NCBI RefSeq assembly: GCF_032854445.1
Contig: NC_088305.1
Location: 24,771,400-24,835,399 of the forward strand
DNA from: Liolophura sinensis
Taxonomy: Eukaryota > Mollusca > Polyplacophora > Chitonida > Chitonidae
DNA: 64,000 bases
Direction: 5' to 3'
How positions within the stretch are numbered: the stretch's first letter is position 1; every line of letters starts with the position of its first letter. The translations under genes were made by a program, and so were the position numbers. The notes beneath the pieces were generated by a model that was given only the letters and a program-made list of their open reading frames with translations, did not search any database and had not been told where the DNA came from. Below, piece after piece: positions 15,222-61,739 of the stretch.

Positions 15222-15349
15222 TACTATGATTCTTCAACTCACCTTCGGCGAAGACAGACTTTCGCTTCAAATTAGCATACGGCTTTCCTTTACACTTATA
15301 TCTTTTATATGGGAGCATAAGTTATTGGTCGCAAATCAATGCTCTGCAT

Positions 15350-17165: not shown

Positions 17166-17169
17166 GTTT

Positions 17170-19245: not shown

Positions 19246-19251
19246 GTGGGG

Positions 19252-19456: not shown

Positions 19457-19639
19457 AATCTTGTATTGCATAATCTAAACCTACAGTATTTGAATACCGA
19501 AATACGATGCGCTGGCCAGTGATGGTATGAAAACCTGAGTTGAATAGGTTAAATCTAATATCCAACAGATTCCGCAAAACTGACTTTATGTATGTTTTTT
19601 GACGAAGTCTGCGTTAAACAACAATGGCCGTTCATGCAT

Positions 19640-19825
19640 TTTAAGGTTACAGGTGCGCAATTCAGACAGTTGGATCTTGCCTCCGAGCTGAAGAGTGAAA
19701 GAGCACTGATTGGGTAATACTGCCAACAAACAGTTTAGGTTTTCTGCTCTATAAGATTGCACCTAGTTAAAATATATCAGAATTTTGTCTGTTTTGGATA
19801 GAACTGAAAACTTTTTGCCAGAACG
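19640..19825 (+). repeat. dispersed repeat, copy 2
   Basis: Direct-orientation relative of 16970-17165, about three quarters identical by eye. Confidence 0.7.
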
Positions 19826-20199
19826 CAAGGGAGGTAAGTGGGCTTGGATTTTGCCTAAATGAACCACGGAAAGTAATACAACCTGGACTATAAAGACAGT
19901 TGCCTTCAACTTTGTTGGTGCGCATTTTAGCCAAGTCTTTTGAACGTATAAGATGTGTTAGAAGTTTAATTGTTCTAATAATACGGTTACAGATCGGTGT
20001 AATACGATCGTAGTAATACGGTTTCATTCATACCTTTGAACATTTTTTCTCATTTCACAATGATTTCGATTTTTTACTATTAGAATTTATCAGTAAGAAG
20101 TTGTTAACACACACACGCAGAAACATATAAGAAATAAAGTGATAATTATTAGATACAACTAAAACAATTAAGGAAACAAACTTTTTTCTCCTGGGACCA

Positions 20200-20445
20200 A
20201 AGTGGTTATCGTGACAGCACGGCGCATTGGCCCATATGCCTCTCACGAATGCAGTCGCTGTGAGTTCAACTCCACCTCATGCTGGCTTTCTCTCCGGTCG
20301 TACAAGGGAAGGGCTTCCAGCCACCTGCGGATGGTCGTGGGTTTCCCCCGAACTCTGCTCGGTTCCTGTCACCATGGCCTCCATGGTACAAGTAAAATAT
20401 TCTTGATTACGGTGAAATACACCAATGAAATAAATAAATGAATTG
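20200..20445 (+). mobile_element. SINE, near full length
   Basis: Diverged head, B box (GTGAGTTCAACTCC), complete core and AAATAAATAAAT tail. Confidence 0.8.
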
Positions 20446-20638
20446 CAAATTTCATTCTTTATGCTCTCTACTGGTCGGACCTGTTGTGGTATAGCCGAAA
20501 TGGATAGGCTCACAAGACGACCGATTGCGGCGGAATCATTCTCAGTTTAAATATAGGATATTGCTGTGGTATTGATGTGGCATTTAAGTAAGGAAGCACT
20601 AATAATACGGGCTATGTTAACAATGAGATCGGTCTTCA

Positions 20639-20690
20639 TGAATTTATTTATTCATTTATTTATTTATTTATTTGATTGGTGTTATATTAC
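20639..20690 (-). mobile_element. SINE tail fragment
   Basis: (ATTT)n followed by GATTGGTGTTATA, a severely 5'-truncated reverse-strand copy. Confidence 0.6.
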
Positions 20691-20699
20691 TGATTCTGT

Positions 20700-21885
20700 C
20701 GGACAGCCTGTGCAGTTACTGGCTTATACTTCTCTAATCATACGTGCCAGCCGACCCAAGTTCAAACACCTGGTTTGCCAGCTCATTTGGCTCGGAACGT
20801 CTGGCTTCGTTTCTATGGGAAAGGACAACTAGTCTATATGAGCCAGAGAATTTATTTGCCCATATTTAAAAAAAGGAATTGTTATTTGAGGATGAAACAT
20901 ACATGTTGGAATGACAGCTAACACTTATGATTGGATCTACGAAAGTTAACAATTAATAACATTCCACTGAACTGTATGCCTAATTGAACAACAAAGACTT
21001 GCTTGTTTGTAAAACGTTTTAAATGTCACGTCTTTTGCGTGAGCTCTATGCTGCCACACCGTTGTTACCATCCCAGATGCTTTGTCTTAACAATGCAAAC
21101 CGACAGCCCTCTGGCCATCTTTGATGATAACCATTGCCCAACAACAACTTCAGTGATTCACAACAACAGAGATGACGTCGACATGGCCTCTACCAATCAA
21201 CGCCTTGCTGGAAAGAAAAATTGCAACAGGCCGTCCTTGTTTACCGAGTTTCGTGACCTCATCCACAGAGGTCAACATCAAGGAAGGGCATTCACACTCA
21301 CTTGCTCTATATATCAAATGACCCACATACACGCATAGTCTTCACCGGGGAGCATGTACCAAAGACACAGAGATCGTTTTTTGAGTAATTCTGGACCAGT
21401 GACGTCTAATAAATTGTAGGTAACATCACTGCATTTTCTTTACCTAATTGTCTGTGAGCAATGGTCCGGGGTTGAGGGTGGTGATGGAGGGTGCAATTAG
21501 CTACTGTTTGATTTTTTAGCATTTACATGAACAGTATGAAAGAATCCCTAAATGAGGTAAATTGACAAGAGGCCAAGTTTGACCGGATGCCTGTCACCAT
21601 TTGCCTATTATTACACTTTTCTCAGACACATCATCTCTTTACGCATAACCACCTGCATTACAAGTGAATTAAAGCCATCACCATCCAGTGAACCATTTGA
21701 ATCCGAGCTGAATCGCATTCTATGCGAGTGAGAAATTCAAATACGCCGACATGCTAATGTTTCCATTATATGTTAAGAACCCCTGGGACAATACTTTTAG
21801 CTGTTCTGAAAAATAAAGTAAATTCAAGTTTTTTTTAGCTCTTATTATTTTCTTGTAAAGGGTGGGGCCTGGGCTGTTTGGGTAT
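20700..21885. other. no gene seen
   Basis: A 111-codon open frame at 21003-21338 shows no family motif, splice context or cysteine pattern and is treated as chance. Confidence 0.45.
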
Positions 21886-21995
21886 GGGGTTTCGTGGCGA
21901 AGTGGTTAGCATGCTAGCGCAGCACAATGACCCAGGAACCTCTCACTTATACGAATGTTGTGAGTTCAAGTCCAATTCATGCTGGCTTCATGACT
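21886..21995 (+). mobile_element. SINE head fragment
   Basis: GTGGCGAAGTGGTTAGCATG (A-box region) and GTGAGTTCAAGTCC (B box) are clear. The copy stops after GCTGGCTTCATG. Confidence 0.75.
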
Positions 21996-22224
21996 AATGG
22001 AGATTGTTTGCGATGATTTTTCCAACCCAAGATATATGAAGGTTGCCTTCCATTTTTCGTTCGCAGGTTGTCTTGAACAATGCTTGTAAATGTATGGTTA
22101 TAAGGAAAATAAAAAAAAAACAAAAGGAGAATAAAGTTTCAATTTTGAGGCATATTTTATAATTTTATAGCCTCTCTATTCTATGTTCGCATGGTTTTAG
22201 TGAATGGTCGGGAATATTCGGAAA

Positions 22225-24690
22225 TGGCGTCATGGATGAACAGGCTGGAATGATGAACAGGCTGGGAATGATGGACAGGCTAGAAACTATGAACAAACAA
22301 GGAAAGATGAACAGCCTGGGTACGATAAATAGGGCGGGAACGATAAACAGGCCGGGAATGATGAACAGGCTGGGAACGATGCATTGGCTGGGAACGAGAA
22401 ACAGGGCGGGAACGATGAGCAGGCAGGGAACGATGAACAGGCCGGGAACGGTGAACAGACTGGGAACTGTGAACAGGCAGGGAACGATGGACAGGCTAGG
22501 AACTATGAAGAGACCGGGAACTATGAACAGGTCCGGAACTATGAACAGACCGGGAACGATGAACATACTGGGAACGATAAACAGGGCGGGAACGATCAAC
22601 AGGCCGGGAACGATCAATAGGCTGGGAACGATCAAAAGGCTGGGAATGATGGGCAGGCTAGGAACTATGAACAGGCAGGGAACCATGAACAGGCTGGGAA
22701 TGATTAACAGGCTAGGGACTATGAACAGGCAGGGAACGATGAACAGGCTGGGAACGATAAACAGGGTGGGAACGATCAACCGGCTGGGAACGATCAACCG
22801 GCTGGGAACGATCAACAGGCTGGGAATGATGGACAGGCTAAGAACTATAAACAGGCAGGGAACGATGAACAGGCCGGGAACGATGAACAGACTGGGAACT
22901 GTGAACAGGCAGGGAACGATGGACAGGCTGGGAACTATGAAGAGACCGGGAACTATGGACAGGCCCGGAACGATGAACAGACCGGGAACGATGAACATAC
23001 TGGGAACGATGAACAGGCTGGGAACGACAACTGGCTGGAATGATGAACATACTGGGAACGATGAACAGGCTGGGAACGATGAACAGGCTGGGAACGATGG
23101 ACAGGCTGGGAACGATGGACAGGCTGGGAATGATAATTGCCTGGAACGATGGACAGGCTTGGAACTATGAAGAGACAGGGAACGATGGACAGACCGGGAA
23201 CGATGAACAGACCGGGAACGATAAACAGGGTGGGGACGATGTACAGGCCGGAAACGATGAGCAGGCTGGGGACGGTGAACAGGCTTTGAACGATGAACAG
23301 GCAGGGAACGATGGACAGGCTGGAATGATGAGCAGGCTGGGAATGATGGACAGGCTAGGAACTATGAACAAACAGGGAACGATGAACAGCCTGGGTACGA
23401 TAAACAGGGCAGGTACGATGAACAGGCCGGGAACGATCAACAGGCTGGGAACGATCAACAGGCTGGGAACGATGGACAGGCTAGGGACTATGAACATACC
23501 GGGAACGATTGACAGGCTGGGAATGATGGACAGGCTGGAATGATGAACACGCTGGGAATGATGAACAGGCTGGAATGATGAACAGGCTGGGAATGAGGAA
23601 CAGGCTGGAATGATGGACAGGCTGGAATGATGGACAGGCTGGGAGTGATGGACAGGCTAGGAACTATGAACAAACAGGGAACGATGAACAGCCTGGGTAC
23701 AATAAATAGAGCGGGAACGATGAACAGGCCGGGAATGATGAACAGGCTGGGAACGATGTATTGGCTGGGAACGAGAAACAGGGCGGGAACGATGAGAAGG
23801 CTGGGAATGATGAACCGGCTAGGGACTATGAACAGGCAGGGATCGATGAACAGGCTAGGAACGATAAACAGGGCGGGTACGATGAGCGGGCCGGGAACGA
23901 TCAACAGGCTGGGAACAATCAACAGGCTGGGAATGATGGACAGGCTAGGAACTATGAACAGGCAGGGAACGATGAACAGGCTGGGAACGATAAACAGGGC
24001 GGGTACGATGAGCAGGCCGGGAACGATCAACAGGCTGGGAACGATCAACAGGCTGGGAATGATTGACAGGCTAGGAACTATGAACAGGCAGGGAACGATG
24101 AACAGGCTGGGAACGATAAACAGGGCGGGAACGATGAGCACACCGGGAACGATGAACAGGCTAGGAGCTATGAACAGGCCGGGAACCATGAACAAGCTGG
24201 GAACGAGAAACAGGGCGGGAACGATGAACAGGCCGAGAACGATCAACAGGCTGGGAACGATGGACAGGCTGGGAACTATGAAGAGACAGGGAACGATGAA
24301 CAGACCAGGAGCGATGAACATACTGGGAACGATAAACAGGGTGGGGACGATGAACAGGCTGGGAACGATGAGCAGGCTTGGAACGGTGAACAGGCTTGAA
24401 CGATGTACAGGCTGAGAACGATGAACAGACCGGGAACGATGAACAGGCTGGGAATGATAACTGCCTGGAATGATGGACAGGCTGGGAACTATGAAGAGAC
24501 AGGGAACGATGAACAGACCGGGAACGATGAACATACTGTGAACGATAAACAGGGTGGGGACGATGAACAGGCCGGGAACGATGAGCAGACCGGGAATGGT
24601 GAACAGGCTTTGAACGATGTACAGGCTGAGAACGATGAACAGACCGGGAACGATGAACAGGCCGGGAACGATGAACAGGCTGGGAACGCT
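22225..24690 (+). repeat. 18-bp minisatellite array, about 2.45 kb
   Basis: The unit is roughly GGGAACGATGAACAGGCT with recurrent variants (AACTAT, AATGAT, GGACAG, GAGCAG, GCCGGG, GCAGGG), about 135 units. Because 18 is a multiple of three and the unit lacks stops in several frames, long open frames appear on both strands (MNRLGT, NDEQAG and IVPSLF hexapeptide repeats). These are by-products, not genes. Higher-order structure is visible: the block at about 22307-22420 recurs at about 23686-23800, and partly at 23383. Confidence 0.97.
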
Positions 24691-24993
24691 TGACCAGCTC
24701 AGCACCCTCAAGTCGAGGCATTTCCCCAATGAAGCTGACGTTACCACAGCGGGGTGCTTAATTTCCATAGGGAAATTATAGTTTTTAGACATTTTTTTAC
24801 TCCCAATTACAAGAAAGCTGAGAAGACTTCTTATACGGTAATATATTAGACTACATCCTAAACTCCCTTAACAAGTCGTAAATCTAGGTGCGACGGAACA
24901 GTCTTTTCTATTTGATGCAATTATTAAAAAGGGTAAGTTGGACTATACATGTGTATAAATTTAGACCAAAACCCCAAAGCCATTTGTTATTTT

Positions 24994-25117
24994 AATTGGT
25001 GTTTTATATGCTGTACTCAAGGGTATTTCACCTATACCACGGCGGCCAGCGTTATGGTGGGAGGAAACTGGACAGGGCCCTGGGGAAACCCACGACTATC
25101 CGCAGCTTTCTGACAGA
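24994..25117 (-). mobile_element. SINE, 5'-truncated
   Basis: Tail-side half on the reverse strand: ATTGGTGTTTTA, TACTCAAGGGTATTTCACCT, CCAGCGTTATGGTGGGAGG, then the core to CCGCAGC. Confidence 0.8.
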
Positions 25118-25119
25118 TG

Positions 25120-25755
25120 GGCCCAGTTCGCTTTGTGAAAAGGGTAGATTTGCATGCGGCTTTCCAGTGCGGTAGCAAACGTCTTTACCATGCCGGCCAA
25201 GGACCGGTCTCCTGTAGGCAGACAAGGCCGTGATAAGGCCCAACGAAACAATAAAAAAATAAACTATTAAAAAAAAAACATTTACGTTGTATATTCTTTT
25301 ATAATGTGTGAACATTTTCTAAGTGATAAAATGAGACATCAGAATAAATGCTGTAAACGTGAGTGCCGGCATCTAAAATGTTATACACTGGTAAAGTCTA
25401 ATTGGTGTTGGGGTTTGTAGCATAATGTTACATTACAGGATTTTTTTTTATTTCCAAAACATCTATAAAGTGTATATTTTATGCGTGTTAAATCACAAAC
25501 ACTCTCTAGTCACGTGTTAAGTTTAGTAAGAAAATGTTCACATGACATTAAAAATACTTTTCTTGATCGTTACCAAATACTGTATTTTACATTATATACC
25601 ATTTTAGTTTCGGGAGTATATTCGATCAACAGTTATATTCCAACTCGCCTATAGCCTCGCTTGCTCACTTAGCAAAATCGATTTTAGCAAACATAGTCGA
25701 TCGGCATCTGACCAGTGAGGTCCCAGGCTTGTGCAGCTGTCTCGACAGGCCAACT
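25120..25755. other. no gene seen
   Basis: Non-coding, AT-rich. Nothing recognisable. Confidence 0.45.
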
Positions 25756-25756
25756 C

Positions 25757-25826
25757 TAAACTCTGGTAAACTTAGCAGAATGTCCGTTATTTGAGTGATG
25801 CTTGAATGTATTCTATTATTACTTTT
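25757..25826 (+). mobile_element. MITE-like element fragment, copy C
   Basis: About 70 bp aligned with the interior left part of copy A (AGCAGAATGTCCGTTATTTG.. GAATGTATTCTATTATT). Confidence 0.5.
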
Positions 25827-25849
25827 AACAAAAGCCAGCAACCAACACA

Positions 25850-26653
25850 GATGTACAGAGATCAGATGGAACAGCAGGCCCAGGGATTACGAAGCAATCT
25901 TAGACGTAAGTCAAAATTTCAAATCACTTTAAAATTCTTGTTTCCTGTATTACAAGATCTATATTCTGCTTGAAAACGTACATTCTGGGTAAGTTATTGT
26001 ACAACGCATTTGAGCTAAAACAACAGAAGGGGCACATACCAAATTTAATGACTCTCTTCGTTACCCCACTAGTTTCATTTCATGTTTAATATACTTTTTA
26101 CAAGGTTATTTTTGGGCCAAGTTCAAACCTGAAGACTTGGCTGAGAGTTAAATCCGGCATTAAGTCCTAGGGCAGTTTTGAACAACCGGCTGCTGAGCGT
26201 TTTGGATATAACTGCAATGTTAAGATACAAATTAGGCTGCATTCGCTATCAATTCCGCAATGTATCTATATACTGGCCTTAGATCGTACCAAGCTCTGAG
26301 GCTTCTGCAGCTTGTGACGTCATTTATGGAGACACGGCTTGTCCAATCAGAACGCTTGATGGACCTAATCTAATTAGAATTCAAGTGGTATAGTCATGAG
26401 TTTATGGCGCATCAAAACATTGTTGTTTATAAGATGTGACAAACAAGGGACAATTAATACTCATAATTAGACGCAAGGCACATATTTTATTAAACGTTTT
26501 CGTTTTATTCAGCGACATATGTCATCGGGTGCTTTCAAAGAAGGATATCAAATCAAGACTTAATTGGAGGAGTAGTCTGTTTCATCCGGGAACAAGGCGC
26601 CCTAAAATCACTTCACGCATGACTTATTTTTCAGATGTCTCTACCTTGCACTG
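25850..26653 (+). CDS. possible two-exon gene end, unknown
   Basis: An open stretch beginning near 25850 (SQQPTQMYRDQMEQQAQGLR-like) ends at a strong GTAAGT donor (25906). Downstream, CTTATTTTTCAG (26622-26633) is a fair acceptor. Joining in phase 1 gives a short tail and TGA at 26651-26653, with AATAAA about 40 nt later (26693-26698). Each signal is common by chance and the protein is unrecognised. Confidence 0.2.
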
Positions 26654-27488
26654 AATGGAAAAGGTGAGCAGTAAAAATGTACTTTATGGGACAAATAAAG
26701 GATTGTGAGATTCAGTCGTGACTTTGAGAGAGAAAAAAAGGCCGCAAATGCGCATTTCGATACCCACCACAAACGAGCCTCTGCACAATATTTAAACCCA
26801 TTGTCTTTACATGTCTAAAGACAAAACGCGATCCGTAGTTCCAGGCGTGACGAAGTGTAAAGAGAGACAGACAGACAGACTTATACCTGAACACAGGTAG
26901 GTTACAATAAGGCTCTCCTGTCCCACTTGATAACCAGTTGGGACTGTATTATTATTTTTCCTAAAAAGATCTCAAAGGAAAAGTTAGGAATCCTGAGAGA
27001 ATATTCCTATACGCAGTAAGTCATGTACACGTATATCATACTCTTGCAGTTTATAATTATTTATTTTATAATTTTATAACACTGCACTTCGCAAGTTGTT
27101 GGGTTAGATTTCAACGTAAGTGTTTTTTGTGTGTTGTTTAATGCCACACTTCTCACTTTTATTGTGGCGGTCAGCTTTTATGGCTGGACAAAACTGGAGT
27201 GACCAGGATTGAAGCGCTGACCTTAGGCACGTTACGGACGGACTTTCCCTTATATGACGAACATATGTGCGCACCATGTTATTGGAAGACACATGTTGGA
27301 TTGCACAAACGTACACACGAGCGTATTCACCCGCTTATTGTCATCTTCAGTGAGAGTATGGAAATGTACAAATTCTGATTCTCAAAAAGAGTTTGATAAA
27401 ATTGTTTTAGTACATCCTTTGGACAATCGCTGACTCATTGACCAAAAGCGTACTGCTCGCCGCAGCACGGTGATCATTTGTAGGTTGG

Positions 27489-27605
27489 AGCGGATGGTCG
27501 AGGGTTTCCACCCACCATAATGCTGGCCGCCGTCGTATAGGTGAAATATTCTTGAGTACAGCGTAAAACACCAATCAAATAAATAAATAAATAAATGAAT
27601 AAATA
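27489..27605 (+). mobile_element. 5'-truncated SINE with target-site duplication
   Basis: Core and tail only. Flanked by ATTTG(T/C)AGGTTGGA on both sides (left from about 27475, right from about 27605). Confidence 0.85.
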
Positions 27606-27619
27606 AATTTGCAGGTTGG

Positions 27620-29035
27620 AATTCAGGGCCCGGCTGTTCAAAACTAGTTTAAGACTTAATGCCAGATTTAACTTTAAATCAGATTTTCAATTTTTAACTT
27701 ATGGTAAAAGACTGTGTAACATCCTATTAAATATGAACCAAACTGCTGTTGTTATACTTTCACTTTGGAGAACTGTATTGGCTGCTGAGGTTGGTTAAGA
27801 ATTTAAATATAAATTATGAGTTAATACCAGTATTAGCTCATACACTTTCGAACAACTGGACCCAGGTCTAGCTGTGTCTACTGCTGTATTAAGTCAGGGT
27901 GTTTGTCACCTATCCGGCAAAATGCGGTAAATTCTCTCAGACTATTCATATATAAACGGAATAAATATACAACCACGCCCTCAGTGTTAGGATCGCGACC
28001 ATATGACTGCAGTACTGCCGAAGTGGCTCTAAGCAATAATCATTCATTTATGCTGTGAATTTAGTTTATAAAATTGCTCTGATGCGACACAGATGTCCAA
28101 TAAACACTTAACCACACACACACCGCTTAAAAGAGATTGACGCTGATACCTGTGTTCGTATCTTGGGTTAAGACAATAAATGGTATTGTTAGACTAGGCT
28201 AGTCTAGTTTAACATGTTTTGTAAGATTTTTTAGGTTTGGGTTGTTGTAGTTGTATGTATAACAAAAGTTAACGCCTAACCACTTTCTGCTTCATTTCTT
28301 ATACTGCCCCACCCTCTCCCACGTTTAACTTCTAAACGCATGATAAAACTTCTCTTTGCAACAAATATTAAACGTGCATAATACTTAATTGCAACATGTT
28401 TAAAACTTAAACACTTAAACAAACTGATAATAAGACCGCTTTATAATGTTGTATTTAATGTAGATACATTACAAATAAATACAAATAAATGTAAGTATTT
28501 ATAAAATACTAATGTATTTACAAAATAAATCCAAGTATTTATGAAACAATCGCGTGTATTTTAAAAGATAAACACACGTTTAATATGTTAAATGTTAGGA
28601 GTTATTACAGCGTACCGAGAGACAACCCATACACACGTAGGCCTACCATACACTGTGCCTTTATTATTTCTTTCATTGTCGTTAAACTCAAAAACATTTA
28701 ACTTAAAATATATGACGACAGTCAGGTTTATGGGTGAAAGATACATAGAGTGATCGTGATAAATCATTGCCCTTCGCTAGGTACCTGTCACCTTTTTTGC
28801 CAATTGTTTGGGAGAAATTTTTCCTAGGTCTTCTGTATCCCAGTGTTGTATTTCGTATTAACCAGTGACAATATCATTTCTGGAAACATTTATCAGAAAA
28901 TCAATGAAAAGTTAACAGTTATGGCGTATCCTTCGCGTCGTATCTTTAAAAAAGGATTACTTTCGTGTGTTTATTTATTTCATTTATGTTTAATGACGTC
29001 TCAAGAATGTTTGACCTATATAACCGCACCCAAGG
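27620..29035. other. no gene seen; dispersed-repeat fragments
   Basis: 27620-27710 (GTTCAAAAC... AAGACTTAATGCCAGA) resembles stretches near 26110, 32990 and 40095, so a further old repeat family is present. A GCCGAAGTGGCTCTAAGCAA fragment near 28018 resembles ones near 35035, 46425 and 51530. Confidence 0.4.
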
Positions 29036-29040
29036 TTAAT

Positions 29041-30088
29041 GGGAAGCGATGTGACGTCAACTTCACATTAGAGCGATGTGAAATCTACATCACACGATAG
29101 CGACCTGACCTGCACTTATGCAACAGTGACGTGACATCCACATCACACGATAGCGATGTGAAGCCCATGTCACGCGATAGCGATGTGAAGTTCACTTTAC
29201 ACGGCAGCGACGTCAAGTCCGCATGATAGCGATGTCCAGGCCACTTCACACGATAGCGATGTGAAGTCCATACGATAGCGATGTCAAGGCCACTTCCCAA
29301 GAATAGCGATGTCTAGTCCACTTCACACGATAGCGATGTCTAGTCCACTTCACACGATAGCGATTTTAAATCCACTTCACACGATAGCGATGTTAAATCC
29401 GCTTCACACGATAGCGATGTTAAATCCACTTCACGCGATAGCGATGTTAAATCCGCTTCACACGATAGCGATGTTAAATCCACTCCACGCGATAGCGATG
29501 TTAAATCCACTTCACACGATAGCGATGTTAAATCCACTTCACACGATAGCGATGTTAAATCCACTTCACACGATAGCGATGCTAAATCCACTTCACACGA
29601 TAGCGATGTCTAGTCCACTTCACACGATAGCGATGTTAAATCCACTCCACGCGATAGCGATGTTAAATCCACTTCACACGATAGCGATGTTAAATCCACT
29701 CCACGCGATAGCGATGTTAAATCCACTCCACGCGATAGCGATGCTAAATCCACTTCACACGATAGCGATGTCTAGTCCACTTCACACGATAGCGATGTTA
29801 AATCCACTCCACGCGATAGCGATGTTAAATCCACTTCACACGATAGCGATGTTAAATCCACTTGACACGATAGCGATGCTAAATCCACTTCACACGATAG
29901 CGATGTCTAGTCCACTTCACACGATAGCGATGTCCAGGCCACTCCACACGATAGCGATGTTAAATTCACTTCACACGATAGCGATGTGAAATCCATTTCA
30001 CACGATAGCGATGTCTTGTCCACTTCACACGATAGCGATGTTAAATCCACTTCACACGATAGCGATGTTAAATCTTCTTCACACGATA
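29041..30088 (+). repeat. 27-bp minisatellite array, about 1.05 kb
   Basis: The unit GATAGCGATGTTAAATCCAC + TTCACAC recurs about 38 times. The first 250 bp are more diverged (GCGATGTGAAGTCC forms). A variant with GATGTCTAGTCC recurs at intervals, giving longer-range periodicity. Open frames in the array (LHTIAMLNP repeat and its reverse) are shadows. Confidence 0.97.
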
Positions 30089-30394
30089 CCAGTGATACTG
30101 TATGGTATTCATACAGCATATAAAACAACCTGCTAATCTGTGTTAAGTGAAGTTCTGCAAGCCCTGGCGTGTCAAAATGACATCAAGGTTTACATCAAAT
30201 AAAAAACTAAAAAGCTATAGACAAGAGAAGAATTGTCTCGGTTTCTAGATACAGACAGAAAGTCACGAAGATGACAAGTGCGTGTGAAATGTCTGGATGT
30301 ATTTAACACGAGTCAAACTTGTCAAACCTCCTTTTATCGGGCCTTTACTTTATCTTCATTGGATTGAGTTACGCTTAGGTAAGCTTAACGGTAG

Positions 30395-31345
30395 CTTGTG
30401 GACGGAGGAGACTGGACGTCGTGGTAGTGACAAACTTTCTGGCGTAAAGCCGTAGCCACAGGAGTCCGGACGTGGTGGTAGTGACAGAGCTCCTGGTGCA
30501 AAGTCGTAGCTAGAGGAATCCGGACTTGGTGGTAGTCACACACCTGCTGGTGTAACGCCGTACCTAGGGAAGTACGGGCGTGGTAGTAGTGACAAACCTC
30601 CTGACGTAATGCTATAGCTAGAGGAGTTCGGACATGGTGGTAGTGACAAACCCCCTGGCTCAAACCGTAGTTAGAGGAATCCGGCGTGGTGACAGGGACA
30701 AACCTCCTGGCGTAATGCTGTAGCTAGAGGTGTCCGGACGTGGTGGCAGTGACAAACCTCCTGACGTAATGCTGTAGCTAGACAAAACCCCCTGACTCAA
30801 ACCGTAGTTAGAGGAATCCGGGCGTGGTGGCAGTGACAAACCCCCTGGTGTAATGCTGTAGCTAGAGGTGTCCGGACGTGGTGCCAGTGACAAACCTCCT
30901 GACGTAATGCTGTAACTAGAGGAGTTCGGACGTGGTGGTAGAGACAACCCCCCTGGTTCAAACCGTAGTAAGAGGAATCCGGGCGTGGTGGTAGTGACAA
31001 ACCTCCTGACATAATGCTGTAGCTAGAGGAATCCGGGCGTGGTGGCAGTGACACACCTGCTGGTGTAAAGCCGTAGCTAGAGGAATCCAGGCGTGGTGGC
31101 CGTGACACACCTGCTGGTGTGAAGGCGCGTAGCTAGAGGAGCCCGGACGTGTTGGTAGTGACAAACCTCCTGACGTTATTCTTTAGCTAGAGGAATCCGG
31201 GCGTGGCGGCAGTGAGAAACCTCCTTACGTAATGCTGTAGATAGAGGAGTCCGGGCGTGGCGGCAGTGACAAACCTCCTTACGTAATGCTGTAGCTAGAG
31301 GAGTCCGGACGTGGTGGTAGTGACACACTTGCTGGCGTAAAGCCG
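30395..31345 (+). repeat. 54-bp minisatellite array, about 0.95 kb
   Basis: The unit starts GTAGCTAGAGGAATCCGGGC and continues GTGGTGGCAGTGACAAACCT; about 18 copies with substitutions and some partial units. It begins about 300 bp after the 27-bp array. Confidence 0.95.
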
Positions 31346-31573
31346 AGGTCATGTGATATGATGGATATGGAATGAACTTATATCTGTTTAAATTGTATAT
31401 GTATATGTATAAATATCTCAATCTTTCATTATACTGTTAAAGAGACAGTCACATGTACATGCCATGTAAAGGTAATTCTCGAAGCGAAATGGTAAAATAA
31501 TTAAAGCCATATTTACAAATATAATGTCTTTATCTTTTCTACCCTTTAATTGCCGAAACTTTGCTGCTGAAAT

Positions 31574-31920
31574 GTATTGGTATATATGCTTACATGTAAA
31601 TATGCTTACATGTATATATGCTTTCATGTATATACGTAAATATTTATTTATTTATTTATTTCATTGTTGTTTTACGCCGTACTCAAGAATATTTCACTTA
31701 TACGACGGCGGCCAGCATTATGGTGGGAGCAAACTGGGCAGAATCCGGAGGGAAACCCACGACCATCCGCAGGTTACACGTAAATATGCTTACATGTATA
31801 TATGCTTACATGCAAATATGCTTACATGTATATATATGCTTACATGTATATATGCTTACATGCAAATATGCTTACATGTATATATATGCTTACATGTAAA
31901 TATACTTACATGTATATATG
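31574..31920 (+). repeat. TGCTTACATGTA(T/A)ATA array, split by a SINE
   Basis: Short unit of about 14-16 bp alternating TTACATGTAAATATGC and TTACATGTATATATGC. A SINE at 31645-31774 interrupts it. Confidence 0.9.
31645..31774 (-). mobile_element. SINE, 5'-truncated, inserted in the array
   Basis: Tail (ATTT)n, then the reverse core, stopping at CCGCAGGTT. Flanking ACGTAAATAT occurs at 31635-31644 and again at about 31777-31786, a probable target-site duplication. Confidence 0.85.
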
Positions 31921-31974
31921 CGACATTCTCTGTTCTGTGTTTCAGTGGGTCATACCAGCTCGGAACACTTAGCT

Positions 31975-32014
31975 ATGGGGCCAATCCCTGTTGTGTTTTT
32001 CGTGCTTTTTGGAG
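31975..32014 (+). CDS. inhibitor gene exon 1: signal peptide start
   Basis: ATG at 31975 opens MGPIPVVFFVLFG, a hydrophobic secretory leader, and ends at a perfect GTAAGT donor (32015) in phase 1 (GGA G|gt). An acceptor (TGTGTTTCAG, to 31945) precedes the 5' leader, so an upstream non-coding exon is likely. The paralogue at 57646 begins the same way, with the same GGA G|gtaag junction, which supports this start. Confidence 0.75.
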
Positions 32015-32306
32015 GTAAGTTGGCCCTAATCTGTCGAACAATCTTTAACACGCAGCAGATCTGTTTCCGAAGCTTATAATATCAAACCAGTTTTGTGGTC
32101 AAAAAATTTATTTCGATTAAGTGTTAATATTCAGTTGATTCAAATTATCACTAAATGCATTTAAATAGAGATTTAAATTAGAAGCTATGTACCATTCTTT
32201 ATTGTATATCTGCTTAAGGTTTTTAGGGCCTAAGGTCAGTTTACATACAAACAAATAAGTACAGTAAACCAGTAAAATAACAAGAGTCTCTTTTTCGATT
32301 TTTCAG

Positions 32307-32321
32307 GTGTTTTCTCTCAAG
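32307..32321 (+). CDS. inhibitor gene exon 2: 15-nt microexon
   Basis: Acceptor CGATTTTTCAG, then 15 nt, then GTAAGT. It enters and leaves in phase 1 and adds G-V-F-S-Q to complete the signal peptide. The paralogue has a 33-nt exon (59005-59037) in the equivalent position that also starts GTGTTT. Confidence 0.65.
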
Positions 32322-32392
32322 GTAAGTTATAGTGTAGCCTCTTTTTTATCTCATAAAATATAACCTACCTCCACAGAGACGGTATTCCATAT

Positions 32393-32630
32393 TTATTTAT
32401 TTGATTGGTGTTTTACGCCGTACTCAAGAATATTTCACTTATACGATGGCGGCCAGCATTATGGTGGGAGGAAACCGGGCAGAAGCCGGAGGGAAACCCC
32501 CTGCCGGAAGGCAGACCTTCTCACGTACTGCTGGAGAGGAAGCCAGCATGAACTGGACTTGAACTCACAGCGATCGCATTGGTGAGAGGCTCCGGGTCAT
32601 TACGCTACCCTAGCGGGCTAACCAACTGGA
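32393..32630 (-). mobile_element. SINE with perfect 9-bp target-site duplication
   Basis: Almost full length in an intron of the inhibitor gene. ATTCCATAT at 32384-32392 and 32631-32639 brackets it. The head end reads GGCTAACCAACT (A-box complement). Confidence 0.95.
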
Positions 32631-32639
32631 ATTCCATAT

Positions 32640-34630
32640 GTATACAGATTTGTGTATAAGTATGACCACGTATACCAACGGTCGCTTCTTTTCAGTCCTT
32701 GTGCTCCACCCTGTGTGAATTTCCCTTTAGCTCAGGATTTTGTTTATTAATAGGCCCGAGTTAAAATCCAAGTGTTAACGACTGAGTAAATCTTTTGCCC
32801 TGAGTTACGGTCTCATTAACATTACAATATACCTGAATATATAGGTACACCAATCAGTGCCGCAGATACATATAAGAAAATGCACCAATTAGGGTTATGG
32901 ATTTATATAACAAATTGCTGCAGGAACAGGACCATCGCCCTCTGCTTCACCAATCAACCCCTCCAACTTATCACGCGGCAGCGAAGTCAAAAGTGTATTA
33001 ATAGTTAAGCCAGGCTTAAATCTTAACACCAGTCTTGACCTAATGACCTAATGGGCCCGTTTTCTTTTACCTGCCTTCTTTTTTCAGTTATCCGCAGTAA
33101 TACCACCCATACTCACTGTCGAAACTGCCTTTAGTCGGTGATATGTAACATCAACTGCCCTACATACGGATATACTGGAAGTTTCTATCAATGCAGATAA
33201 AATGCCCTTCGAATACGTTTTCTAATTAGAACACTATAATGCTGTTCACGAGGCAAAAAGCTCATTACCTCGGTGAGGTCATAATTGAAAAAGAAGTGGC
33301 ATTTGTTATCTTAAAGGGAATCAGTTCTGATTGGTTGACGCGCGAGATAGGCGGGTCCAAGCTATGCCTTGCCTAGGCTAAATTTTAGGTATTGTATATT
33401 TATTCAAGCGTGACCAAGGCTGCAAGATTTAACCTAGCAAACCTTATCTCCTCTGTCAGTACATCGACATCGATTCAGTGTTCCTTTAATATTTGGGTGG
33501 TGGTGATTTGTGCTGGTGGTAATCTATTTCTGAGTCAAGTCTTATCCATTCTACACTGAAGTGGAACTTGCGAACGGCTCGGGTAGTACAAATTCTTGCA
33601 ACTTTTCTTTAATATAAATGTTTTTATCGGAAAAAAATTATTTGTCCTTTCGAAGTGTGAACTGTTAACGGAGAACCGCGAACCAAAATACAAATTGTAG
33701 AGATACTAATCCGACCTTGTGACCAGGTCGGCACAGGGAATTTGTGTATTCGTCTGCTCTCACTAGAGTCAATAAGCCGTTGTCTTCGATCACCAGGACG
33801 TTTGGGTAGTTGTTAAGACCACATGCTGGTCTACTATCTATGACGTAAATCTGACGTATCCTGAAATACATAATGTATGTCATCAAACGATACAATCAGG
33901 GACTGATTCCAAACCCGTTTCTGACAAAATTTCAAGTCAAAATTTGAAATTCTATCATAAAGCTTATTTCACGGCTTTAGAAATCAAAATTGTGTTCGCC
34001 TTATCAGTACTGTCTTAACACAAGTATGTACCCAAATTCCAACTTCCAGCACCAAAAACTATGCATTATGATGCGATTTTTAAATTTTGACTTTCTGGAA
34101 TCGGCCCCAGGTGATTGAACTCCACCTTCATGTTGTTTTGTCAGAGAGATATTGATTGATTTCAACGAAATCATGACATTGCTTTAACTAGTGTTAGTTT
34201 ATGACTTTTATGGAAAGTAATATTCTTATTGAGATTCAATTAGTTCTAACATACCCCAGTACTAATTGCAATAGGGGATTATACAATTTCTTTTAAACAT
34301 CCTTGTGAAAAGTGATTGCCATTTTAAATTTTGCAAAAATGTTTCCTTGTGTTTCTTTTTTGCGCTGAGTTATCAGTACCCTCGCACCACAAACCCAAAT
34401 ACAGACAATTTCTTGAAAATGAATGTTCATGTATATTAATTTAATATGCTCATTTATTTTCATCTTTCGCATCAAACAGATTTTCTTTTACTTCCAGGAA
34501 ATATAGTCATTTTGGACGCCTCTATTTTCATTCATTACACATAATAATGTATAACGACTATATCAAACAGGTGGATTAGTAACTTAGTGAAAACAAAACA
34601 TGAATAGTTCTGATGTCTTTTTACTGTTGT
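32640..34630. other. intron sequence, no gene seen
   Basis: Large intron of the inhibitor gene. No other exon with matching phase and cysteine content was found. Confidence 0.5.
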
Positions 34631-34638
34631 TATTCCAG

Positions 34639-34720
34639 CCTGCCCGCCCGATAAGCCCTTCACACAGTGCCCTTATCACCCTTGTATAGCTGCTACCTGT
34701 GCCATAGGGACAAGATGTGT
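34639..34720 (+). CDS. inhibitor gene exon 3: Cys-rich module, first half
   Basis: 82 nt, acceptor TGTTATTCCAG, donor GTAAGT; phase 1 in, phase 2 out. It encodes CPPDKPFTQCPYHPC then AATCAIGTRCV, a C-x8-C-x4-C-x4-C-x5-C pattern. The paralogous exon at 60358-60439 is also exactly 82 nt with the same cysteines (CPPDQPPANC, AYCPAGTTCV). This 'CP.GT.CV.. .CGGC' module is seen in many secreted invertebrate extracellular and shell-associated proteins; its own function is unknown to me. Confidence 0.85.
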
Positions 34721-35110
34721 GTAAGTAAACGTAGTCAAGTATGAACTTGGACTGTTCCATGTAAGCTAAAGATACAAAGCCTCGCCAAGAATGAACTTTG
34801 ACTGTGTAATTTCTGTTATTTCTGGAATGTTTTCTTAAAAATTTGAAATCGTTGGTTTAGTTCTGAGCCCGGCTGCATGGATGTGTCTTTTTACGAGAGT
34901 AGTTGTGTGGGGCGCTGTTGTTAAAGCTGACCCTCGTTGTATACGGGAATGCAGCCGAGAATGAAAAAAACTTTCAGTGCAGATAAATAGGTGTGGTTTA
35001 GGAAGGAGACCTTCTCTGGCATGTCGCAACTATATGGCCGAAATATTGCCGATGTAGCGTTAAGCAACAATCGTTCATTCATTTATTCCAGGGTTACACC
35101 CAGTTAAAAG

Positions 35111-35224
<114 letters not shown>

Positions 35225-35511
35225 TACTGGTAATTTACCAAACGAGCAGAACATAGTAACATTTTCATTACAAACTTTCTTCTTGCCTAACAAGGTTACA
35301 AGTGTGAAAATGAAGTGTTTTTCAAATTGCACAGATGTAGCTTTGCACGTCTGCGTGACATTGCTGTGTGTTGAATGACAAGCTGGCAGCCTCGACTAGA
35401 CAAGAATGGATATTATCCAAAAACACTAAACCAGAAACTAACTTTTCCATGTAGATGAATACAATTAATGATTTATATCTGCTGAGCTGGTGTTTCGTTA
35501 TTTCGTTACAG

Positions 35512-35564
35512 AGCTGATCAATGTGGAGGGTGCTTTATCAAATGTTTACCCCTGGAAAGTACAT
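35512..35564 (+). CDS. inhibitor gene exon 4: Cys-rich module, second half
   Basis: Acceptor CGTTACAG, donor GTAAGT, 53 nt, phase 2 in and phase 1 out. Completes V-A-D-Q-C-G-G-C then FIKCLPLEST. The CGGC motif matches the paralogue's FCGGCRHEC (61698 exon). It links directly to the pacifastin array through a split TCA codon. Confidence 0.8.
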
Positions 35565-35873: not shown

Positions 35874-36284
35874 ACTGCTCTCTCTTTGCTTATTTCTGTA
35901 TGCTAAATTGTCTCGCTCTCATTTTTGGTCTATCCTATTGTAAATCCTAAATAAAACCTGTCATCACAGACTTTTCTGTCCAGGATTCCTCTAATCAGGA
36001 AAAGATAGCCGCTTGCGCAATTTTTCTCATACCACGCATGAATATAACCCGCAGGCGAGCGTCGGTGGCTTACTCTGGGCAGTTCCGTCCAGTGAACAAG
36101 GTCACCGTCATAGACAGTGAAAAACCTACATTAATCGGCCTATCGATCAATCAATCAAGCTATCAATCAGTCAGCTTAAACGCTCTTCCGTTAATCTGCA
36201 ATCGATATTAACAATAAATTATCAGAAGGATAAATGTTCCATCAAACGGTAAAATGTAAAATTTATATATTTTTCTGTTGCCAG

Positions 36285-39200
36285 CAAAGAAGTGTACCGA
36301 AAACGGAAAAACTTACAATGCTGGGGAAACATTTACAGCATCGGACGGCTGCAACACGTGTAGGTGTACCGAGACCGGAGTTGCAGCTTGTACACTAAGG
36401 GCATGTGTACCACCAAAGCAGTGTACCGAAAACGGAAAAACTTACAATGTTGGGGATACATTCACAGCATCGGACGGATGCAACACGTGTAGGTGTACTG
36501 AGACCGGAATAGCAGCCTGTACACTGAAGGCCTGTGTGCCACCAAAACAGTGTACTGTAAACGGAAAAACTTACAATGCTGGGGATACATTCACAGCATC
36601 GGACGGATGCAACACGTGTAGATGTACCGAGACTGGAGTTGTAGCCTGTACACTAATGGCATGCTTGCAACAGAAGCAGTGTACCGAAAACGGAAAAACC
36701 TACAATGCTGGGGATACATTCACAGCATCGGACGGATGCAACACGTGTAGGTGTACCGAGACTGGGGCTGTAGCTTGTACACTAAAGGCCTGTGTGCAAC
36801 AGAAGCAGTGTACCGAAAACGGAAAATCCTACAATGTTGGGGATACATTCACAGCATCGGACGGATGCAACACGTGTAGGTGTACCGAGACTGGAGCGGT
36901 AGCATGCACACTAAAAGCATGTGTGCAACAGAAGCAGTGTACCGAAAAGGGAAAAACTTACAATGTTGGGGATACATTTACAGCATCGGACGGATGCAAC
37001 ACGTGTAGGTGTACCGAGACCGGAGTTGCAGCTTGTACACTGAAGGCCTGTGTGCCACCAAAACAATGTACTGTAAACGGAAAAACTTACAATGCTGGGG
37101 ATACATTCACAGCATCGGACGGATGCAACACGTGTAGGTGTACCGAGACTGGAGTTGCAGCTTGTACACTGAAGGCCTGTGTGCCACCAAAACAGTGTAC
37201 TGTAAACGGAAAAACTTACAATGCTGGGGATACATTCACAGCATCGGACGGATGCAACACGTGTAGGTGTACCGAGACTGCGGCTGTAGCCTGCACACTA
37301 GTGGCATGTGTGCAACAGAAGCAGTGTACCGAAAACGGAAAAACCTACAATGCTGGGGATACATTCACAGCATCGGACGGATGCAACACGTGTAGGTGTA
37401 CCGAGACTGGGGCTGTAGCCTGCACACTAGTGGCATGTGTGCAACAGAAGCAGTGTACCGAAAACGGAAAAACCTACAATGCTGGGGATACATTCACAGC
37501 ATCGGACGGGTGCAACACGTGTAGGTGTACCGAGACTGGGGCTGTAGCCTGCACACTAAAAGCATGTGTGCAACAGAAGCAGTGTACCGAAAACGGAAAA
37601 TCCTACAATGCTGGGGATACATTCACAGCATCGGACGGATGCAACATGTGTAGGTGTACCGAGACTGGAGCTGTAGCCTGCACTCGAAAGGCCTGTGTGC
37701 AACAGAAGCAATGTACTGTAAACGGAAAAACCTACAATGTTGGGGATACATTTACAGCATCGGACGGGTGCAACACGTGTAGGTGTACCGAGGCCGGAAT
37801 TGCAGCCTGTACACTGAAGGCCTGTGTTCCACCAAAACAGTGTACTGTAAACGGAAAAACTTACAATGCTGGGGATACATTCACAGCATCGGACGGGTGC
37901 AACACGTGTAGGTGTACCGAGACTGGAGTTGCAGCTTGTACACTGAAGGCCTGTGTGCCACCAAAACAGTGTACTGTAAACGGAAAAACTTACAATGCTG
38001 GGGATACATTCACAGCATCGGACGGCTGCAACACGTGTAGGTGTACCGAGACTGGAGTTGCAGCTTGTACACTGAAGGCCTGTGTGCCACCAAAACAATG
38101 TACTGTAAACGGAAAAACTTACAATGCTGGGGATACATTCACAGCATCGGACGGATGCAACACGTGTAGGTGTACCCAGACTGGAGCTGTAGCTTGCACG
38201 CTAGTGGCATGTGTGCAACAGAAGCAGTGTACCGAAAACGGAAAAACCTACAATGCTGGTGATACATTCACAGCATCGGACGGATGCAACACGTGTAGGT
38301 GTACCGAGACTGGAGCTGTAGCCTGCACACTAGTGGCATGTGTGCAACAGAAGCAGTGTACCGAAAACGGAAAAACCTACAATGTTGGGGATACATTCAC
38401 AGCATCGGACGGATGCAACACGTGTAGGTGTACCGAGACTGGAGCGGTAGCATGCACACTAAAAGCATGTCTGCAACAGAAGCAGTGTACCGAAAACGGA
38501 AAAACTTACAATGTTGGGGATACATTTACAGCATCGGACGGATGCAACACGTGTAGGTGTACCGAGACCGGAGTTGCAGCTTGTACACTAAAGGCCTGTG
38601 TGCCACCAAAACAATGTACTGTAAACGGAAAAACTTACAATGCTGGGGATACATTCACAGCATCGGACGGATGCAACACGTGTAGGTGTACCGAGACTGG
38701 ATTTGCAGCTTGTACACTGAAGGCCTGTGTGCCACCAAAACAGTGTACTGTAAACGGAAAAACTTACAACGCTGGGGATACATTCACAGCATCGGACGGA
38801 TGCAACACGTGTAGGTGTACCGAGACTGGAGCTGTAGCCTGCACACTAGTGGCATGTGTGCAACAGAAGCAATGTACCGAAAACGGAAAAACCTACAATG
38901 CTGGGGATACATTCACAGCATCGGACGGGTGCAACACGTGTAGGTGTACCGAGACTGGGGCTGTAGCCTGCACAGTAAAAGCATGTGTGCAACAGAAGCA
39001 GTGTACCGAAAACGGAAAAACCTACAATGCTGGGGATACATTCACAGCATCGGACGGATGCAACACGTGTAGGTGTACCGAGACTGGAGTTACAGTTTGT
39101 ACACTGAAGGCCTGTGTGCCACCAAAACAATGTACTGTAAACGGAAAAACTTACAATGCTGGGGATACATTCACAGCATCGGATGGATGCAACACGTGTA

Positions 39201-39775
39201 GGTGTACCCAGACTGGAGCTGTAGCTTGCACACTAGTGGCATGTGTGCAACAGAAGCAGTGTACCGAAAACGGAAAAACCTACAATGCTGGGGATACATT
39301 CACAGCATCGGACGGATGCAACACGTGTAGGTGTACCGAGACTGGAGCTGTAGCCTGCACACTAAAAGCATGTGTGCAACAGAAGCAGTGTACGGAAAAC
39401 GGAAAATCCTACAATGCTGGGGATACATTCACAGCATCGGACGGGTGCAACACGTGTAGGTGTACTGAGACTGGAGCTGTAGCCTGCACTCGAATGGCCT
39501 GTGTGCAACAGAAGCAATGTACTGTAAACGGAAAAACCTACAATGCTGGGGATACATTTACAGCATCGGACGGGTGCAACACGTGTAGGTGTACCGAGAC
39601 CGGAATTGCAGCTTGTACACTGAAGGCCTGTGTGCCAGCAAAACAGTGCACTGAAAATGGAAAAACCTACAATGTTGGGGATACATTCACAGCATCGGAC
39701 GGGTGCAACACGTGTAGGTGTACTGAGACCGGAATAGCAGCCTGTACACTAAAGGCCTGTGTGCCACCAAAATAG
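36285..39775 (+). CDS. inhibitor gene exon 5: 27 tandem pacifastin-type domains, ending at an in-frame TAG
   Basis: The exon begins after TTTTCTGTTGCCAG; no ATG is needed because it splices from exon 4. It encodes 27 domains of exactly 43 residues (129 bp). Each carries six cysteines as C-x18-C-N-T-C-R-C-T-E-T-G-x3-C-T-x-x-x-C and a linker ending PP or QQ before KQC. The C-N-x-C-x-C..G..xC-T-x3-C half matches the pacifastin family of small serine-protease inhibitors, best known from arthropods. Their reactive bond lies between the two residues after C-T. Here P1 is Leu in 24 domains, Arg in domains 11 and 25, and Val in domain 21; P1' is Lys, Val, Met or Arg. The first loop (18 residues) is longer than the usual 9-12, and the front half (NGK.YN.GDTF) also recalls half a VWC domain. 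The array is very homogeneous, implying recent expansion or gene conversion. Confidence 0.9.
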
Positions 39776-39995
39776 TGTACTGAAAATGGAAAAACCTACA
39801 ATGCTGAGGATACATTCACAGCATCGGACGGCTGTAACACGTGTAGGTGTATCGAGACTGGAGCTGTAGCCTGCACACTAGTGGCATGTGTGCAACAGAA
39901 GCAGTGTACCGAAAACGGAAAAACTTACAATGTTGGGGATATATTTACAATATCGGACGGATGCAACACGTGTAGGGCCTGCACACTTAAGGCCT
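39773..39995 (+). pseudogene. domains 28-29 beyond the stop, in frame, ending at a splice donor
   Basis: The CAG that starts every other 'KQC' is TAG here. The same frame continues through domain 28 (GDT changed to EDT, RCTE to RCIE) and domain 29 (GDTFTAS changed to GDIFTIS, and 21 nt lost between RC and AC). It ends GCC T|gtgagt at 39996. That donor is phase 1, like the other junctions, and the split T|GT restores the last cysteine when joined to the exon at 47170. Confidence 0.75.
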
Positions 39996-40439
39996 GTGAG
40001 TTATCTGATTTGATCTGATTTGATCACTTACTTTGGGTAATATTTTACTTATGGTGCTAACTGCATAAATCCGAGTTTATATTTCTCTCCTTAACTCAGT
40101 CAAATCGTGCTCTGTAAGAGTTAATACCAAATTTAACTTCAAGCCAGGACTTCAGTTTTGTCCTTGGCCCGAAAATAATTATGTAACAGGATATGAAATA
40201 TGAAATAAACCTTGTTCCATTTGCTCTCTGTGCCTCTGCATTAGTTCCTGGGTTTTGTTAAAATCATAAAAGCATGTTTATTGTTTGATATAATACCGTT
40301 TTTCTGTTCTAATACCCTAAGCTCAAACAAACACAAAAGATTTGTCATCTCACAACACAGGTTTTATTACAGAAATGCCAGCCTCGTCTCCACAGACAAA
40401 AAATAATAAGTACGAGAAAAGTATATGAAAGGAAACCCT

Positions 40440-47169: not shown

Positions 47170-47265
47170 GTCAGCGGTGCCCTCTGCACAAATGTAGACC
47201 CTGCACCACCGGACATGTGTACGATACGAACGGCTGTAAGACGTGCCAGTGCCAGGATCCCTCCT
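47170..47265 (+). CDS. inhibitor gene exon 6: antistasin-like domain
   Basis: 96 nt between ATTTCTTACTTCCAG and a GTGAGG donor, phase 1 at both ends. It encodes CPLHKCRPCTTGHVYDTNGC then KTCQCQDPS and a final split cysteine. The C-x4-C-x2-C-x2-G-x3-D-x-N-G-C-x2-C-x-C pattern is that of antistasin-type serine-protease inhibitor domains. Its presence beside pacifastin domains supports a multi-inhibitor role. Confidence 0.8.
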
Positions 47266-47630
47266 GTGAGGCGAGTGGCTGGACAAGGGGATGTGTCTCG
47301 GTGGTGGGACAAGGAGATGTGTCATGGTGGTGGGACTCCGGGGTAAGGCACGGTGTGGGACACGGGGGTTTGGCACAGGTTTTTGTCACGAGGATATGAC
47401 ACAGAGATTGGGCAAGGAAATGGGGCACGGGGATTTAACACTGTGAGTGAGTGAGTGCTTGTGTTTAACGTCGTACTCAACAATTTCTCAGTCATATGAA
47501 AGGGTGTATGTAATGTGCCTCCTTGTTTCATTTATATAGTCTTTATTTTGTAATCTTTGGTACCATGATAAACCATGACTTATACTGTGACCCATTTGGT
47601 GAATACAACAACTTGACAGATAGATAAATG

Positions 47631-49458: not shown

Positions 49459-50213
49459 TTTTAACACTACGATGTAAGACGGCTATGTATTGTGGGGCAA
49501 GGAGATGTGGCACAGCGGTGGGGGACGAGAGTGTGATGTGGCTGTTTGTCATGTGTCACAAGGGTGGGGCGGATTTTGTGTGGCACGGGAGTGGGACACA
49601 GGGTCACAGAGATCTAGCACGGGAATGTAACATGGGGATGTGTAAAGGGGAGGGGTAACGGGAGGGTTTCAAATATTGTATTTAAAAATGTAGAAATGAT
49701 CATTAATTAGATTGCGTATATTGTTATATCTGCACAGGGAGTGACGTGTGGCAAGGGCTTTTTCTGTTCAAACTCATATTGTGAGTGCTTTTACCTGCAC
49801 ATGAATAATCTCTATTGTCGTGCATATTTAGCAGAAAGTATTTGTGAAACTAAAGGCTTACAGAATAAATGTCCTGTAAACGCGTTCGAAAATACTATTC
49901 ACCACTGCATGATTTCAACAGAAGTTTCCAAAAATACATCGCTGAATTAAATTTCTGATATAGTGCTTTAATTTAAATCCTTTTCCTCGCAGCATTTGTA
50001 CATCAAATTTCATTTGTATTAAATATTTTTTGAACAACGGTAAATTAAACAATTACCGTCAAATTGCAGGCTCTCAGTAGTATATCGTTGACAACATGGG
50101 CATACTGTGTATGAAAAAACAACATTATTTTTTATACTGACACTCATTGTTTTTTACTGACCTTATAATTCCCAAACGTTTCTAACATGACATGAATAAC
50201 TGCTGCATTTCAG

Positions 50214-50292
50214 GTTGTCCAGATAGGGTTAAAATGATACAGTGTGCTGATCCGTGTGCATATAGACAGTGCGGTATCTTCAAAGTATGCAG
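50214..50292 (+). CDS. inhibitor gene exon 7: C-terminal Cys-rich module, first half
   Basis: Acceptor TGCTGCATTTCAG, donor GTAAGT, 79 nt, phase 1 in and 2 out, like exon 3. It encodes CPDRVKMIQCADPC then AYRQCGIFKVC, the same C-x8-C-x3/4-C-x4-C pattern as exon 3. The module therefore brackets the inhibitor array on both sides. Confidence 0.8.
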
Positions 50293-60357: not shown

Positions 60358-60439
60358 ATTGTCCACCTGACCAGCCTCCCGCCAACTGCCCTATTAACCC
60401 GTGTTTCCTTGCATATTGCCCAGCGGGGACGACCTGTGT
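60358..60439 (+). CDS. paralogous gene exon 3: Cys-rich module, first half
   Basis: 82 nt, acceptor TCATCGATCCTAG, donor GTAAGT, phase 1 in and 2 out, exactly as exon 3 of the first gene. It encodes CPPDQPPANCPINPC then LAYCPAGTTCV. Conserved length, phase and cysteines establish paralogy. Confidence 0.85.
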
Positions 60440-61697: not shown

Positions 61698-61739
61698 ACC
61701 TCGTTTTTGCGGGGGATGTCGGCATGAGTGTAGAAAAAG
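61698..61739 (+). CDS. paralogous gene exon 4: Cys-rich module, second half
   Basis: Acceptor ATTTCTCCACAG, donor GTAAGT, phase 2 in. Encodes (V)PRFCGGCRHECRK, the CGGC counterpart of exon 4 in the first gene. It leaves in phase 2, unlike its paralogue (phase 1), so the next exon must differ. No later exon was found before the window edge. Confidence 0.8.

Follow-up and report, generated by a model that had tools for sequence, protein, structure and literature searches.

What is encoded by a chiton exon of 3.7 kb in which a six-cysteine unit recurs in tandem, by what route did the exon reach that length, and does its gene still yield a working product? The window considered here, i.e. the whole stretch of 64,000 nucleotides that was analysed (positions 24,771,400 to 24,835,399 of NC_088305.1, assembly GCF_032854445.1), is from Liolophura sinensis, whose assembly was first published as that of L. 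japonica (PMC11068029), the species being corrected later (PMC12441733). An earlier note, made from the letters alone, had proposed a long run of pacifastin-type inhibitor domains in a probable mollusc, and a chiton is indeed the host. Its gene could encode an inhibitor with many heads, or decay of the gene could be setting in.

The array exon and its neighbors

The array of 29 units within one exon is real, and 27 of the units keep the frame. TRF gives a tandem repeat of period 129 at 36287-39976 (28.6 copies, 90% matches, 0% indels), and the open reading frame call is of a single frame of 1171 codons at 36260-39775. All 27 intact units are in register, with 43 codons and six cysteines each, just as the earlier note had it (a unit repeated 27 times with no change of length); at the DNA level every one of them is distinct, and at the protein level there are 20 distinct sequences. 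The single exon and the ends assigned to it also stand, the latter being splice-exact: the acceptor is gttgccag/CA at 36284/36285 and the donor GCCT/gtgagt at 39995/39996, both in phase 1. A corresponding exon of two units in three paralogous loci, dealt with below, has its acceptor AG at the identical place and the same donor in 3/3 loci. The final Cys codon of the array exon is split by the donor and would be completed by exon D, both in the window and in the one paralogue examined. The number of domains, previously given as 27-29, conceals an interruption, a TAG opening unit 28 and unit 29 being without Cys4; the in-frame TAG and the damage downstream of it had been missed, leaving the description of the end of the array incomplete.

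Table 1. Features of the array gene, in window coordinates
Feature	Position	Strand	Evidence or remark
Exon A, first half of a Cys-rich module (CPPDKPFTQCPYHPC...GTRCV)	34639..34720	+	Splice sites tattccag/CC ... GT/gtaagt; no Pfam match
Exon B, second half of the module begun in exon A (ADQCGGCFIKCLPLES)	35512..35564	+	gttacag/A ... T/gtaagt; colinear in paralogues
Array exon, 29 units of 129 nt, unit 29 being shorter	36285..39995	+	Phase 1-1
Intact pacifastin-like units, n=27, 43 residues each, in frame	36290..39772	+	PF05375, 615.7 bits, 27 stretches
In-frame TAG, first codon of unit 28	39773..39775	+	Other units: CAG, CAA, or AAG (unit 1)
Unit 29, 21-nt in-frame deletion taking out Cys4	39902..39995	+	In-register unit comparison
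AATAAA, first one 3' of TAG; weak candidate for a polyadenylation signal, should the array exon be the last	40204..40209	+	
Exon D, antistasin module, GC donor	47170..47270	+	PF02822, 22.3 bits
Exon E, short, Cys-containing (GVTCGKGFFCSNSY)	49738..49780	+	Splice sites; colinear in paralogues
Exon F, CPDRVKMIQCADPC... module	50214..50292	+	Splice sites; colinear in paralogues
Exon G, module A type, second copy	60358..60439	+	Splice sites; paralogue comparison
Exon H, module B type, second copy (RFCGGCRHECRK)	61698..61739	+	Splice sites; paralogue comparison

Among the neighboring exons, exon D exceeds the cut-off of the antistasin profile PF02822 (22.3 against 21.2 bits), in keeping with the inhibitor-like flanking module postulated earlier, and exon A is also present upstream of the two-unit exon in the three paralogous loci. 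For a signal-peptide exon 5' of exon A, two crude searches of 15001-34640, run without a positive control and uninformative, gave no candidate. The Cys-rich module spread over two exons (C-P-x-D-x-P ... C-V / ... C-G-G-C), at 34639-35564 and again at 60358-61739, is matched by no Pfam profile in the two copies tested and by none from NCBIfam in the one copy tested, and occurs at 14 places in the genome at E <= 0.01, all on chromosome C11. Elsewhere in the window, 22235-24688 is occupied by an 18-bp minisatellite (137 copies), both strands of which have long open frames, and at 7107-10248 there are fragments, with endonuclease and reverse-transcriptase parts, that resemble a broken LINE.

Family of the unit and its predicted targets

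In profile searches the pacifastin-type identity proposed for the unit was borne out, with PF05375 over its cut-off of 27.9 bits in both single window units tested (39.0 and 33.8 bits) and scoring 615.7 bits, in 27 stretches, on the whole array. VWC (PF00093) is just under its cut-off of 27.6 bits in two window units (26.5 and 27.5 bits), its alignment there covering only positions 1-38 of 57, and is absent from the whole-array profile matches at E up to 10; as the family of the unit it was set aside, being below the cut-off in both tested units, though close. Among paralogue units, scores of 22.7 and 26.9 bits fall short of the PF05375 cut-off, and a unit at 28.5 bits exceeds that of VWC. The TILa, VWC2L, FnI_RECK and Fn1_2 profiles (PF12714, PF23333, PF23334, PF25028, PF23003) pass when summed over the 27 units (74-217 bits), each being below its own cut-off in 2/2 single window units, and VWC2L_1st passes on the two-unit paralogue exon (35.3 bits). 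An NCBIfam search gave one chance match only, at 45.4 bits against a cut-off of 200. With a unit profile built from 27 sequences (6 window units and 21 from paralogous places), the best locust pacifastin in the PDB (30.9 bits) and MUC5AC (31 bits) are matched about equally; MUC5AC is the top match both for this profile and for a two-unit query, VWF modules also match the profile, and pacifastin chains, PMP-C included, are matched by both queries. The AACTLKAC of PMP-C is identical to the loop in many window units.

Pacifastins (PF05375 / I19) are defined in part by the disulfides C1-C4, C2-C6 and C3-C5 and the fold, and by inhibition of serine peptidases. At the level of primary structure, all six Cys, the Asn that follows Cys2 and one Gly of the first loop are invariant in 27/27 aligned units (6 from the window). 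The family formula from Cys2 to Cys6, as given in PMC2689174, C2-N-x-C3-x-C4-x2-3-G-x3-6-C5-T-x3-C6, fits 26 of the 27 window units (unit 8 has Ala for Gly), and C5-T-x-x-A-C6 is retained in all of them. The C1-C2 loop is of 18 residues in every unit, which is outside the conventional C1-x9-12-C2 spacing but within the 13-20 residues of the 'Ancestral' pacifastin architecture of a 2026 survey (PMC13388995, Rodriguez-Aguilar et al. 2026), so that membership is claimed for the Ancestral class only; the idea that a long first loop marks a distinct subfamily is supported by this correspondence. Less clear-cut is the alternative once posed between a pacifastin and a relative of half a VWC domain: pacifastin is the best by profile, but because VWC is a close second the two readings do not separate cleanly. 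The chiton unit has in common with VWF and mucin modules an N-terminal-half pattern, C-x-x-N-G-x-x-Y-x-x-G-x-x-F-...-C-x-x-C-x-C, this half being VWC subdomain 1. From the profile scores we would place the unit where pacifastins meet the first VWC subdomain, nearer to pacifastins, and the family call was largely right.

Each unit would be expected to fold as a pacifastin domain and to offer its canonical loop, C5-T-P1-P1'-A-C6, to serine peptidases, where P1, the second residue of the C5-C6 loop, mainly determines the target (PMC2689174, PMC13388995). P1-P1' in the 27 units is LK in 16, LV in 6, and LR, LM, RK, RM and VK in one each, i.e. P1 is Leu in 24, Arg in 2 and Val in 1, for which the predicted heads would be of chymotrypsin class, trypsin class and elastase class, respectively. 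The linkers between units, [VL]-[PQ]-[PQA]-K, have no dibasic site (the sole dibasic pairs are a KK where the array begins and an RK within one reactive loop), so the predicted array product, of about 120 kDa with 162 Cys, is expected as one many-headed inhibitor and not as single domains cut from it. The 27 domains encoded by the gene as assembled are probably those of a many-headed chymotrypsin-class inhibitor, or of a decaying paralogue.

Probable growth of the array, and its damaged end

At C11:23.47-23.59 Mb, 1.2 Mb from the window and on the minus strand, three closely similar loci in tandem, spaced about 46-48 kb, have a two-unit version of the exon, flanked by A and B before and by D, E and F after, with order and phases as in the window. 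Four units from two-unit exons have 64-79% identity to a window unit. The presence of a two-unit exon between the same flanking exons establishes where the splice sites are and points to expansion of the array within the exon. Within units 1-28, runs of similar unit pairs (at least 3 pairs, with at most 6 differences) occur at lags 7, 8, 12, 14 and 15, their total length being 18 as against a mean of 1.5 in shuffled unit order, with 0/5000 shuffles as high. Comparison of the units thus shows marks of block duplication, in multi-unit stretches, in the 29-unit array. The simplest reading is of growth within one exon via multi-unit block exchange, by which the exon appears to have gone from about two to 29 units, unequal exchange being the presumed agent.

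The same kind of comparison shows the 29 units to bear marks of selection on the coding sequence. Distinct single-base variants in the 27 units comprise 31 synonymous, 26 nonsynonymous and 0 stop, when the synonymous share expected without selection is ~25% (binomial P = 1e-5, tested against 27%). The among-unit pN/pS is 0.22, that of the array is 0.17 versus paralogue unit 2 and 0.39 versus paralogue unit 1, and, over few codons and against one paralogue, that of exons A+B is 0.18 and that of exons D-H 0.42, with the one-to-one pairing of G/H less sure. Variants seen in just one of units 1-27 (14 nonsynonymous, 10 synonymous) are close to neutral and only weakly constrained, which counts against function. 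The two reactive-site codons (P1 and P1') hold 5 of 25 amino-acid alleles, 1.2 being expected (P = 0.005).

In the assembled sequence translation stops after unit 27, so the antistasin exon and later exons are not reached, and the consequence would be a truncated yet working inhibitor or else the first step of decay. The three paralogues, unlike the window copy, have two units per exon, no TAG, and GT as the donor of exon D in 3/3 (GC, at 47271, in the window); their first AATAAA is >1.1 kb further on than that in the window. Further on, outside the window, a pacifastin-like exon is interrupted by a TGA and its Cys1 is gone, its counterparts in the paralogues being terminal as judged by their own stop. 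Frame, cysteines and splice sites are all retained in exons A, B, E, F, G and H. Decay of at least the 3' half is indicated by the TAG, by the loss of Cys4 from unit 29, by the GC donor in exon D and by the TGA and missing Cys1 downstream. Faster decay of units 28-29 than of units 1-27 was considered and found no support, private nonsynonymous or stop changes being 6/8 versus 14/24 (Fisher P = 0.68); this lack of a difference across the TAG likewise counts against function. As a separate observation, 7/8 private single-base changes in units 28-29 (39773-39995) are C>T or G>A, the figure for units 1-27 being 6/24.

The window copy may be a decaying paralogue with its function lost, the frame being open from recent loss or from homogenizing exchange between units, and this we regard as a possibility to be taken seriously while still falling short of probable. 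A stop codon upstream of introns provides a context for nonsense-mediated decay, and the TAG has introns downstream; the 21 nt missing from unit 29, the GC at the donor site of exon D, the broken downstream exon, the ratio of private changes (14 nonsynonymous to 10 synonymous) and the lack of a 5' end in the crude, uncontrolled searches are all consistent with it. However, 27 units without stop or frameshift, an overall synonymous excess (31 versus 26), the intactness of exons A, B, E, F, G and H, and a pN/pS versus a paralogue of 0.18 (A+B) and 0.42 (D-H) argue against it.

Two other readings concern the nature of the product and of the sequence itself. It is unlikely that the units, as VWC-like modules, bind matrix or mineral and not peptidases, e.g. 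as part of a protein of shell or cuticle: in both window units tested PF05375 is the Pfam profile that matches best, C5-T-x-x-A-C6 is present in 27/27, and amino-acid changes fall on the P1 and P1' codons more often than expected, even though VWC scores come near the cut-off (26.5 and 27.5 against 27.6 bits), MUC5AC and VWF modules match the profile, the Lottia shell matrix contains a VWC/pacifastin-domain protein (PMC4094399) and adhesion modules are linked to Ancestral pacifastins (PMC13388995). Near-identity of tandem units at a read depth of 14X could in principle have misled the assembler as to copy number or the stop codon, but an artefact is very improbable given that all 27 units differ in their DNA and that, from the published read statistics, HiFi reads (mean 8,347 bp) are longer than the 3.7-kb exon (PMC11068029). 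On balance we lean to an expanded exon of a multi-domain, Cys-rich, secreted-type chiton gene, with units of the 'Ancestral' pacifastin class and with a product that is a truncated but working inhibitor or a first step of decay. Considerably more tentative, and rather doubtful, is the proposal of a coding minisatellite in which unequal exchange within the exon would set the number of heads, copy number and P1 spectrum would vary among individuals or chiton species, and the TAG would mark one shortened allele of an inhibitor that is functional and changes rapidly.

Relation to other pacifastin arrays

Conventional arthropod pacifastins (MEROPS I19, PMC2689174; PMP-C/LCMI-II, SGPI, crayfish pacifastin light chain) likewise have six Cys with C2-N-x-C3-x-C4, the Gly in the C4-C5 loop as in 26/27 chiton units, and C5-T-x3-C6. 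Their first loop is of 9-12 residues as against 18, and they mostly have 1-5 domains (PMC2689174), whereas the chiton array has 27 and no dibasic linkers. Closer are the Ancestral pacifastin-like domains as described in PMC13388995, whose first loop has 13-20 residues and is rich in G and Y/F and which occur in a multi-domain context with few processing sites, but the chiton array, unlike those described there, sits inside one exon. Mollusca contribute 109 of the 394 pacifastin-like proteins of that survey, so that such proteins had been described from molluscs before. The 27 domains are neither beyond known counts nor a candidate for the record, as Trichoplax TAPP-1, also a long non-arthropod array with almost no dibasic sites, is reported to have 42 (PMC2689174). 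The same source gives it a gene of 88 exons, two per domain, with 30/42 domains predicted to be of trypsin type and none of chymotrypsin type, the prediction for the chiton being mainly chymotrypsin-class. No pacifastin array this long in a single exon was found in a literature search limited to open-licence papers and their available portions.

PF05375 has at least 117 places in the chiton genome (a lower bound, 150/203 candidates having been scored), and all but five of those listed are on C11. Attention is drawn to C11:14242567-14290922, minus strand, where 67 distinct pacifastin-like domains each occupy an exon of their own, the splice sites being of phase 1 and exon blocks being tandemly duplicated. 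The acceptor is 2 nt before the C1 codon in 66/67, the first donor in phase follows the C6 codon by 1 nt in 62/67, and P1 is Glu, Gln, Thr or Asn in 52/62 listed domains. If it is one gene, it would exceed the published 42 of Trichoplax (PMC2689174).

The window exon provides a clear case of a two-domain exon that apparently grew to 27-29 domains through internal exchange, and since paralogues without the expansion persist on that chromosome, the expansion step is datable and comparable across chitons. Its mostly Leu P1 is found in a mollusc, the phylum for which the 2026 survey reports the highest relative use of Lys-type P1, that of Leu being highest in arthropods (PMC13388995), so that the array departs from the pattern of its phylum at P1. 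With a second route, that of 67 single-domain exons at one locus, on the same chromosome, one animal offers both growth modes of an inhibitor family.
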